The notes beneath the pieces are model-generated. The model was given only the letters and a program-made list of their open reading frames with translations. It was not told the DNA's origin and made no database searches. From Chloroherpeton thalassium (lineage in GTDB: Bacteria; Bacteroidota; Ignavibacteria; Kapaibacteriales; UBA2268), in contig DYLM01000012.1 in the NCBI GenBank assembly GCA_020722095.1, positions 1 through 39,407 of the forward strand: a stretch of 39,407 nt of DNA. The letters run 5' to 3'. Positions within the stretch are counted from its first letter, which is position 1, and each line of letters starts with the position of its first letter. Positions 31,590 through 39,133 of this stretch are shown here, one piece after another. The translations under genes and the position numbers were made by a program.

Positions 31590-31723
31590 AATTCACTACA
31601 ATAAAATTACAAAAATTAAGGAAAATTAAAAAAGTTTAAAATTTCTTTAAAAATATTGTAATTGTTTGAAAAATTTACATTAAATTTGAAATATTGAAAT
31701 TAATAAAAATCAAAGGAGTTCAA

Positions 31724-33064
31724 ATGGTAAAAAATGCCAATACAATTCGCCAGAATAGGACCAAAATAGGGGCCCAACACTTAGGTATATTCTTCTCAAT
31801 GTTAGTTGTGTTTTTCTTATTATTTCTATTTAGTGTTATTCCTTGGGGAACAGCACAATTTGTGGTGCCTTTATTTCAGCCATCAGGTGATAAACTTGAT
31901 AAAGTAGGCTTTGTTAAATTTGATGGTTTGGTTTGGGCTTCTACAACCAAAGATAAAGAAGCAGCAATAAAAGGAAAAAATTTAAAGATTTCCAAGGATT
32001 TAATCAATAAAGATTATATCTTTGACTTTACTTTCGAAAAAAGAACTTTAGAAAAAGATGGTTATGTTAAGGGTACAAATGAATTTTACACACGTAGTGA
32101 AGTATTAGGTGAGAACGCAATCATTTTGGAACCTTATATTGGTTTCTCCATTCTTGCTCTCGACTTGGCTCTTGTTATTACTGCTCTTATTTCAATTTTA
32201 TTGCCTTCTCGCTTAGGCTTAATAGCTTTGTTATTTGATAGACAAATTGATGATACAAAAGTTAAAATCAGACTTCAAACTGGTTTTACTGATCACATAG
32301 TGGATTTATTAACTTTGCCAGACGATAAACTTGCCGAGAAAGACTTTGACGAAGTGAAGAGTGCATTTAGATTAGTTTGGAACAGAACAACTGTTGAAGA
32401 TATGGATGGTGGATTCCGTCAAGCAAAATTTGAAGACTTCTTCCATGATGATATTAATACTGTGGAATTCCGAAACAACACTTTATATTCTCGTATTAAA
32501 GAATTCTTCTCAGACTTCCTTGTAAAAGAAATTTTAGATACTAAAAACGCTTATCAATGGAGACGCAATCATACAAAAATCTTCAAGGGCTTGAGATTAT
32601 ATATGTCCCACCACATTACAGAAAAATATCAGAACTTAGTAACTGGTATGGCTTATGGTGGTGCTGCATTCTTAATCGTTGCTGTTGGTATTCGTGGTTT
32701 GAAATTTATTCCTTCCGCTAAACCATCATTTATCTTATTGGCGATTTTCTTGGAATTTACTATGCTTTCGCTCTTGGCTTTCACTCTTGTCTACACAGAA
32801 GAAGAAGAACGTATGGACAAGATGTTGAAGAAAATGGAAGATGCAAATCGTTCGCAATTAGAAGCTTTACGAAGCCAACAAACAGATATTCACCAATTAG
32901 CAAACGCTTTAGTTGGTCAGACTGCTGAAATTATCAAAACAAGAGTTGAGAAATCAATCGAACAATATATGACAAGTGGCGATAAAGTGCAACAAGTTAT
33001 TGCTACCGAAGTTGCCCGTAAAATTATTTTAGGTCTTCGCGAAGACAACGATATTAATAAATAA
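31724..33064 (+). CDS. Uncharacterised membrane protein with C-terminal coiled coil
   Basis: Four hydrophobic segments (LGIFFSMLVVFFLLFLFSVIPWG; IGFSILALDLALVITALISILL; GAAFLIVAVGIRGL; FILLAIFLEFTMLSLLAFTLVY) then a charged heptad-like tail. Start chosen at MVKNANTIRQ after AAAGGAG (track start 31694). Confidence 0.8.
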   Translation: MVKNANTIRQNRTKIGAQHLGIFFSMLVVFFLLFLFSVIPWGTAQFVVPLFQPSGDKLDKVGFVKFDGLVWASTTKDKEAAIKGKNLKISKDLINKDYIFDFTFEKRTLEKDGYVKGTNEFYTRSEVLGENAIILEPYIGFSILALDLALVITALISILLPSRLGLIALLFDRQIDDTKVKIRLQTGFTDHIVDLLTLPDDKLAEKDFDEVKSAFRLVWNRTTVEDMDGGFRQAKFEDFFHDDINTVEFRNNTLYSRIKEFFSDFLVKEILDTKNAYQWRRNHTKIFKGLRLYMSHHITEKYQNLVTGMAYGGAAFLIVAVGIRGLKFIPSAKPSFILLAIFLEFTMLSLLAFTLVYTEEEERMDKMLKKMEDANRSQLEALRSQQTDIHQLANALVGQTAEIIKTRVEKSIEQYMTSGDKVQQVIATEVARKIILGLREDNDINK

Positions 33065-37122: not shown

Positions 37123-37279
37123 TATTTAATAATATTTTCTTACAAAATTATCATTATTCAACGAATTACTTGCATTTTTGTTTAAAAAGAAGAATAACAT
37201 ATAAAATGATGCAGAACGAAATATGAAAATTTGAAAATGTTTTTTTGGTGTTGGGTGTTGGGTGTTAGGTATATTCAAT

Positions 37280-37440
37280 TTAAAAACCTTATTTTCATTT
37301 TTAACCTTAGTAGAGAAATAATTTCCATTTTAACATACCAAATCTTATAACCTTTTTAAATTTAAAATCAGGAAATAAGGTTATTAGTTTGGTTTGGTTT
37401 ATTTTTTCTACTAAGGTTATTAAGTAAAATAAGGTTTTAA
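37280..37440. repeat. Large imperfect nested inverted repeat built from AACCTTA/TAAGGTT motifs
   Basis: Left TTAAAAACCTTATTTTCATTTTTAACCTTAGTAGAGAAAT mirrors right ATTTTTTCTACTAAGGTTATTAAGTAAAATAAGGTTTTAA; an inner pair (ACCAAATCTTATAACCT / AATAAGGTTATTAGTTTGGT) is nested inside. Confidence 0.75.
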
Positions 37441-37504
37441 AAGAATTTTATTGAATATTTTCAAAAATAAACTTATGGGACAGCTTCTTATTTTTCAATA
37501 TTAT

Positions 37505-38293
37505 TTAAAATAATGATTCAATATTTATCGTGTTTCTTTCTAAGCCATTCCTTTTTATTTCAGGAATGTTGCCATTTAATCTGTGAGTTATCACATCATA
37601 ATAACTCTCTGAAATATCCATTGTGATATAATTTCTTTTTAGTTTTTTTGCAACAGACGCCGTAGTTCCAGTACCTCCAAATGGATCAAGCACAATATCA
37701 TTTTCATTTGAACTTGCTAAAATAATTCGTTCTAATAGGGCTTCTGGCATCTGACAAGGATGGTCGCCAATTCTTTCTTTAAAAGTGCCACAAACTCTAG
37801 GAAATTCCCAAACATCGTCTGGTGATTTACCTTTTGGGTGTGCTCTTTTATCGTTATATACTAATTGCCTTGCAGAAGGAACTCTTACATTATCAATATT
37901 AAAAATGAATTTTTCATTATCTTTTGTAAAATACAATATATGTGTATGTGCTCTATTAAATTTCTTCCTTTGATTCTGTCCAAATGTATAATACCAAACA
38001 ATCCAATTCCTAAAATTAAAACCCGCCTTCTTTAATATTATGTTTATTTCAGCAGCAAATTCATCACCGATAGCAATATAAATTGAGCCAGAATTCTTTA
38101 AAATTCTAAATGTTTCACTAATCCATTTTTCTGACCATTCAAAATATTCGTTGTATGATTTTTTATCATTATAAATATCATACTTTAAACCAATATTAAA
38201 CGGTGGATCTGCAAAGACTAAATCAATTGAACTATTTGGTATGTCTTGCATTATTTTAATACAATCGCCAAGATATATTTTATTTAATTCCAT
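37505..38293 (-). CDS. Site-specific DNA amino-methyltransferase (beta-class order, DPPF motif)
   Basis: IYLGDCIKIMQDIPNSSIDLVFADPPFNIG near the N-terminus, VLDPFGGTGTTASVAKKLKRNYITMDIS near the C-terminus. Confidence 0.93.
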   Translation of the reverse strand: MELNKIYLGDCIKIMQDIPNSSIDLVFADPPFNIGLKYDIYNDKKSYNEYFEWSEKWISETFRILKNSGSIYIAIGDEFAAEINIILKKAGFNFRNWIVWYYTFGQNQRKKFNRAHTHILYFTKDNEKFIFNIDNVRVPSARQLVYNDKRAHPKGKSPDDVWEFPRVCGTFKERIGDHPCQMPEALLERIILASSNENDIVLDPFGGTGTTASVAKKLKRNYITMDISESYYDVITHRLNGNIPEIKRNGLERNTINIESLF

Positions 38294-38296
38294 TGT

Positions 38297-39133
38297 TTAA
38301 GCAATCTCAAATAGTTCACAAGGTTTAAACTTAAATTGTAATTTGGTAGGATCAGGTGTTCCACCTTTTCTTTGCATTGTAATTCTACCAATATGTAGGC
38401 TACCTCTGGGAGTAATAAAAACCTTACCATATCCATAAAAATTCATAGTTATATTAATATCTTTCAAAATCCAACTTGTAGATTCCTTATCAACATTTCT
38501 CATAGTAACTAGCATCCAATTAGCAGATAATCCCCCTCTACCTTTTAATAAATCACTAATAACAAGAATTTTATTTCTCTCAAAGAAATTTACAATTTTA
38601 CTTTGAATTCTTTCCGGAAATTCATCTAAAAACAATCTACGATTCTCCCTGGGTTTAATGTTTCCAATAAGTTTTTTTGCATCTTTTGGCAATATTTCAC
38701 CAGTAAATAATTTCAGCCAAAATGCTATCTCATCATCAAATTTCCACATTTCCTTATACGAATCTACCGTTCTTTTGTCAATTTGATTGTAATCTGCATT
38801 AGAATTAGCTTTTTTAAGTGATAAATTTTCTATCTTAATTATATTTCCAATTTTTATAATCAATTTGACTTGAGCATCAGATTTCTTAAATTTAACAAAT
38901 TCATTGTATTCTTCAATTGTAACATTATATTTTTCAATATCTTTTTGACTAATTTTAGTTGGGACTTGTATTGCAACCACAGAATCAAGTGTATCTAATT
39001 TATAGCCCATAATGTCAAGCCATTTTTGTGCTGTTTTGTCTTTTTTCCAATTATTAAACTTTCTGACAATATTATGCTCATTGTCAAAACCACCTTTTGC
39101 AGTTTGAGACCCTAATTCAGTTCTATCAATCAT
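38297..39133 (-). CDS. HinP1I-like type II restriction endonuclease
   Basis: From recall of R.HinP1I, matching segments include ELGSQTAKGGFDNE, NQIDKRTVDSYKEMWKFDDE, LFTGE, SPRGS-like TPRGSLHIGRITMQRKGG and LQFKFKPCELFEI. Confidence 0.82.
   Translation of the reverse strand: MIDRTELGSQTAKGGFDNEHNIVRKFNNWKKDKTAQKWLDIMGYKLDTLDSVVAIQVPTKISQKDIEKYNVTIEEYNEFVKFKKSDAQVKLIIKIGNIIKIENLSLKKANSNADYNQIDKRTVDSYKEMWKFDDEIAFWLKLFTGEILPKDAKKLIGNIKPRENRRLFLDEFPERIQSKIVNFFERNKILVISDLLKGRGGLSANWMLVTMRNVDKESTSWILKDINITMNFYGYGKVFITPRGSLHIGRITMQRKGGTPDPTKLQFKFKPCELFEIA

Follow-up and report, generated by a model that had tools for sequence, protein, structure and literature searches.

A HinP1I-family endonuclease paired with a DPPF-type beta-class methylase: a putative Type II operon that may have moved away from GCGC

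What does a HinP1I-like restriction endonuclease recognize when its neighbouring methylase resembles an adenine enzyme? HinP1I itself is a monomeric enzyme of known structure that cuts at a tetranucleotide (G^CGC). Since GCGC holds no adenine, plain GCGC cannot be the site shared by nuclease and methylase if the latter acts on adenine. The question is raised by two adjacent genes of contig DYLM01000012.1 (Chloroherpeton thalassium, assembly GCA_020722095.1), whose whole stretch of 39,407 nucleotides is called the window in the following. A preceding sequence-only reading had put it as a dilemma, i.e., either the nuclease has shifted its specificity or the methylase is an N4-cytosine enzyme. 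The pair comprises the following features.

38297 to 39133, minus strand: 278-aa restriction endonuclease, a long-form member of the R.HinP1I family (PF11463) (profile and PDB match)
38294 to 38296, minus strand: 3-bp spacer from the nuclease stop to the methylase start (open reading frame coordinates)
37505 to 38293, minus strand: beta-class amino-methyltransferase (PF01555), 262 aa, probable N6-adenine enzyme (profile match, motifs)

In transcription, the nuclease gene lies upstream and the methylase gene second, and both are probably part of a single transcript. The 3-bp gap reported before agrees with the open reading frame coordinates. We favour, with reasonable though not strong confidence, the joint reading that this is a Type II restriction-modification operon of one nuclease and one methylase gene, in which the methylase modifies adenine N6 and the site has moved from GCGC to one that contains adenine.

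The nuclease matches the Pfam profile PF11463 (R-HINP1I) with an E-value of 2.4e-52 and 177.9 bits (cut-off 25). Among PDB entries, only R.HinP1I (1ynm) gives a real match (E 1.4e-54), with 43% identity across 237 aligned residues. Both match values are far beyond chance, such that the likeness to R.HinP1I put forward earlier stands. A fold search with the predicted structure, a low-confidence model with a predicted local distance difference test (pLDDT) score of 63, also returns 1ynm (E 2.3e-18). Asp62 and Lys83 of HinP1I, which we take to be its catalytic residues, are intact: D62 aligns to D86 of the window protein and Q81-V82-K83 to S105-L106-K107, and D86 and K107 are invariant across the subfamily. 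Where the Gln-x-Lys segment of HinP1I has Gln81, the window nuclease has Ser105, and this Ser is found in 12/12 intact relatives, as are the Asp and the Lys. The change from QVK to SLK had already been seen in a supposedly gap-free alignment; the substitution is correct, but the alignment is gapped, i.e., the window protein carries about 22 extra residues (about residues 58-82) ahead of KSD and of the catalytic Asp. The weight implied for this change did not hold up. Ser-x-Lys occurs in 5/36 nucleases of the HinP1I branch, all of them paired with a C5-cytosine methylase, and thus the Ser at position 81 is uninformative on specificity; we rejected it as a mark of changed specificity. The C-terminal loop of the window nuclease reads RKGGTPDPTKLQFK.

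The methylase matches PF01555 (N6_N4_Mtase) with an E-value of 5.7e-64. Its motif IV, DPPFNIG (residues 29-35), is followed by the target-recognition region and then by motif I, FGGTGTT (205-211), which is the beta-class order that had been proposed. The nearest solved relatives by sequence are all N6-methyladenine (m6A) enzymes, namely MboIIA (2e-34), M.BceJIV (5e-34), RsrI (3e-33) and CcrM (1e-26), compared to 1e-18 or weaker for solved N4-cytosine enzymes. MboIIA, M.BceJIV and CcrM also lead the fold matches of the predicted structure (pLDDT 71). Concerning motif IV, SPPY is usual in N4-cytosine and DPPY in N6-adenine enzymes (PMC8885841); another paper calls S/DPPY/F a hallmark of N4-cytosine enzymes (PMC6712171). 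All window-type methylases show DPPF, invariant in 16 relatives, in place of the SPPY of N4-cytosine beta-class enzymes. Scores for the NCBIfam model YhdJ (PRK11524; 197.8, cut-off 292) and for the CcrM equivalog model (141.4, cut-off 830) stay below the respective cut-offs. We are fairly confident that the methylase acts on N6 of adenine.

To place the pair among its relatives, about 60 loci were collected by genome scanning and by searching related genomes. Three kinds of methylase adjoin HinP1I-family nucleases: C5-cytosine enzymes, TSPPY (N4-cytosine-type) enzymes and the DPPFNIG enzymes of the window type. A C5 methylase, which had been named as the usual partner of HinP1I, is indeed found next to HinP1I-like nucleases in 13 loci as well as in Spiroplasma citri and Mycoplasmopsis records; it lies upstream, e.g., in nanoarchaeal, patescibacterial and Bacteroidota loci. 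The TSPPY partner is of the beta class, is also encoded upstream of the nuclease, and has a rotifer N4-cytosine enzyme as its best solved relative. Short HinP1I-type nucleases with this partner (L046, L060, L009, L012 and about 15 more loci) are interleaved with C5-paired ones in the nuclease tree, and it seems that the chemistry of the methylase was exchanged while the nuclease remained unchanged. In phage and plasmid collections, we found no close relatives of the nuclease except mollicute ones, two of which have annotated neighbours and are C5-paired.

The DPPFNIG partner usually lies downstream and adjoins the longer nuclease. The operon is conserved: carriers belong to the genus and family from which the window comes, to a second family of that class, to Elusimicrobiota, Planctomycetota and Clostridia as well as to the archaeal Ca. 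Argoarchaeum, Ca. Ethanoperedens and Altarchaeota (Altarchaeum), with identities of 56-90% (nuclease) and 68-94% (methylase). Since the pair is scattered over bacterial and archaeal lineages, we infer spread by horizontal transfer. In two relatives, the nuclease gene is broken next to an intact methylase gene: at L040:3384-5456 by two open reading frames that resemble an IS3-type element, and at L021 (G176:C485) by a split into two overlapping frames (154 + 161 aa), probably a natural frameshift or an assembly error. In two viral (IMG/VR) contigs (L209:4995-6502, L210:4953-6498), a diverged HinP1I-type nuclease comes immediately after a DPPFNIGY methylase, and the two form a complete restriction-modification pair of the window's branch. 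Many viral contigs (L211-L236) carry a related DPPFNIG methylase, in many cases with the HPCQMPE motif that the window methylase has too, and with no HinP1I-type nuclease adjacent; these lone methylases possibly serve as anti-restriction protection against window-like systems.

The trees set the window's branch apart together with its own methylase type. For the nucleases, a branch with 100/100 support separates the DPPF-paired ones, including the two from viral contigs (both long branches), from all others, i.e., from the interleaved C5- and TSPPY-paired nucleases. For the methylases, the DPPFNIG type forms a group with 100/99 support; the viral L209/L210 enzymes are sisters (90/83), and the wider viral-contig set without a neighbouring nuclease is placed next to the DPPFNIG group and L209/L210. 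Between the HinP1I and the window branch, four changes in the nuclease are consistent, namely Gln81 to Ser, Leu84-Val85-Ser86 to Lys-Ala-Asn right after the catalytic Lys, the insert (about 22 residues), and a C-terminal loop that reads GGTPDPTK in place of GGDxGRxTANM. The GGT..PT loop is present in 11/12 nucleases of the window's branch and in both viral-contig nucleases with a DPPFNIG partner; the latter thus share the changed loop and are without the insert.

Coming back to the dilemma, it was correctly posed and both of its options stand. The tilt towards N6-adenine, and hence towards a shifted or extended site, follows from the m6A nearest relatives and from the separate TSPPY methylase of N4-cytosine type, which already serves other HinP1I-family nucleases. 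We thus consider an adenine-containing target, i.e., a shift off plain GCGC, likelier than N4-cytosine methylation of GCGC, and think it probable that the recognition site of the window pair is altered. In such a system, a PD-(D/E)xK nuclease of HinP1I fold would cleave invading DNA that lacks the modification, its target being a short palindrome, and the beta-class methylase would shield the host by methylating adenine N6 within that palindrome. The window's branch would have exchanged GCGC for a site with an adenine alongside the reshaping of the C-terminal loop, which presumably takes part in site recognition, and the gain of the inserted segment. Going further, one nuclease family may combine with three methylase chemistries (5-methylcytosine, N4-methylcytosine and m6A), with the m6A branch shifted to an adenine-containing palindrome via a single replacement of the C-terminal loop; this wider picture is tentative, and we would not quite bet on it.

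The most serious competing explanation is that GCGC is protected by an N4-cytosine methylase whose DPPF motif is unusual, and that the nuclease retains ordinary HinP1I specificity. To assess site avoidance, we counted 16 palindromic 4-mers, 64 palindromic 6-mers and 780 degenerate palindromes in four carriers of the system and two congeners without it (about 300-400 kb each), complemented by the pooled flanks of 10 other carriers and the flank contexts of GCGC; the many other restriction systems confound such readings. Several results count against a shifted site. Observed/expected ratios of GCGC are 0.34, 0.65, 0.62 and 0.70 in the carriers vs. 0.88 and 0.53 in the congeners, and GCGC ranks first, though not decisively, of the 780 motifs by the carrier-vs-congener criterion, which was applied post hoc to few genomes. 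No adenine-containing 4-bp palindrome is avoided in all carriers except CTAG, which is itself rare in genomes without the system. Furthermore, one locus (L031) joins a DPPF methylase to the HinP1I-type loop GGDAGRPTANM, with the methylase first and a run of N between the genes; when the loop columns are removed, it falls inside the window's branch at no resolved position. Owing to this locus, we rejected the idea that the loop perfectly predicts the type of methylase. The N4-cytosine explanation is also in line with the LQFK, RKGG and NQxDK core, which is the same as in HinP1I, and with the DPPY/F forms admitted among N4-cytosine enzymes (PMC6712171). While the avoidance data mildly favour it, GCGC ratios in the flanks of the ten further carriers (0.57) are on a par with those at TSPPY-paired loci (0.60), L028 and L031 are among the carriers whose flanks show no GCGC avoidance, and one congener without the system does avoid GCGC. 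Together with the m6A chemistry of all nearest solved relatives and with the TSPPY methylases that the nuclease family already has, which are only distant kin of the window's enzyme, this renders N4-cytosine protection of GCGC unlikely, albeit the alternative that deserves most attention.

Other arrangements are less probable still. A longer site on a GCGC core with the marked adenine outside of it, e.g., NGCGCN, could account for the A/T-flanked GCGC being scarcer than the G/C-flanked one in carriers (under a low-order model), and the insert could supply the added contacts. However, TGCGCA is not clearly below the expectation from its 5-mers, a genome without the system shows a similar A/T-flank scarcity, and the viral-contig relatives do without the insert; we thus deem such a site improbable. 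We give even less credence to the idea that the genes are no working cognate pair, be it that the Ser-Leu-Lys renders the nuclease inactive or that the methylase is an orphan with another purpose. The loss of Gln81 and the broken nuclease genes of L040 and L021 would fit. Nevertheless, Asp, Lys and Ser are kept in all 12 intact relatives, C5-paired relatives of HinP1I show Ser-x-Lys as well, and the pairing persists across phyla and, with a different gene order, in viral contigs.

A shift of the nuclease to an adenine-containing site hence remains our preferred reading. As a deep natural branch of the HinP1I family with an adenine-type methylase, the system offers a testable case of altered specificity in a Type II nuclease, a change that is difficult to achieve by engineering, and the nuclease could become a reagent for a novel 4-bp site. 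If the three-chemistry series is true, it is a natural series from which to learn how an enzyme that cuts at a tetranucleotide comes by a different site. Should the methylase turn out to be an N4-cytosine enzyme, it would be a clear DPPF example of that class and advise caution in calling chemistry from motif IV.

Some further observations were made along the way. Immediately downstream of the methylase gene, an inverted repeat of 40 nt (85% complementary, arms 84 nt apart) spans window positions 37279-37442; it includes AACCTTAGTAGA and could be a small mobile repeat. An open reading frame of 456 aa at 31694-33064 apparently encodes a membrane protein and has no Pfam match at E 1e-5. In the sampled stretches of G032, G053 and G012, GATC is extremely scarce (observed/expected 0.02-0.05), and so is CATG in two of these (0.06-0.08).

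Finally, we compared the window pair with known systems. R.HinP1I (PDB 1ynm, 2fkc; PF11463) shares whole-length homology, the catalytic Asp and Lys as well as the RKGG, LQFK and NQxDK segments. Unlike it, the window nuclease has Ser for Gln81, the insert and GGTPDPT for GGDxGRxTANM, its gene comes first, and its partner is an amino-methylase rather than the C5 enzyme by which a GCGC isoschizomer would be recognized. The TSPPY-paired systems (e.g., L046, L060, L009) have the same nuclease family and a beta-class amino-methylase partner in common with the window, but their methylase has its own N4-cytosine-type motif and is distantly related, and their short nucleases mix with C5-paired ones. 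The viral L209/L210 pairs are alike in their DPPFNIGY methylase (63-64% identity with the window enzyme), the PF11463 nuclease, the loop GGTGSPT and Ser-x-Lys; they differ in that the methylase comes first and that the nuclease, at an identity of only about 36%, has no insert. N6-adenine methylases of the YhdJ, MboIIA and M.BceJIV type agree in motif order, DPP(Y/F) and overall fold, but identity is at most about 31-43% and the window enzyme stays below the YhdJ and CcrM cut-offs, so that shared specificity is not implied. Within the R.HinP1I family, the window system is thus novel by its partner and probably also by its site.
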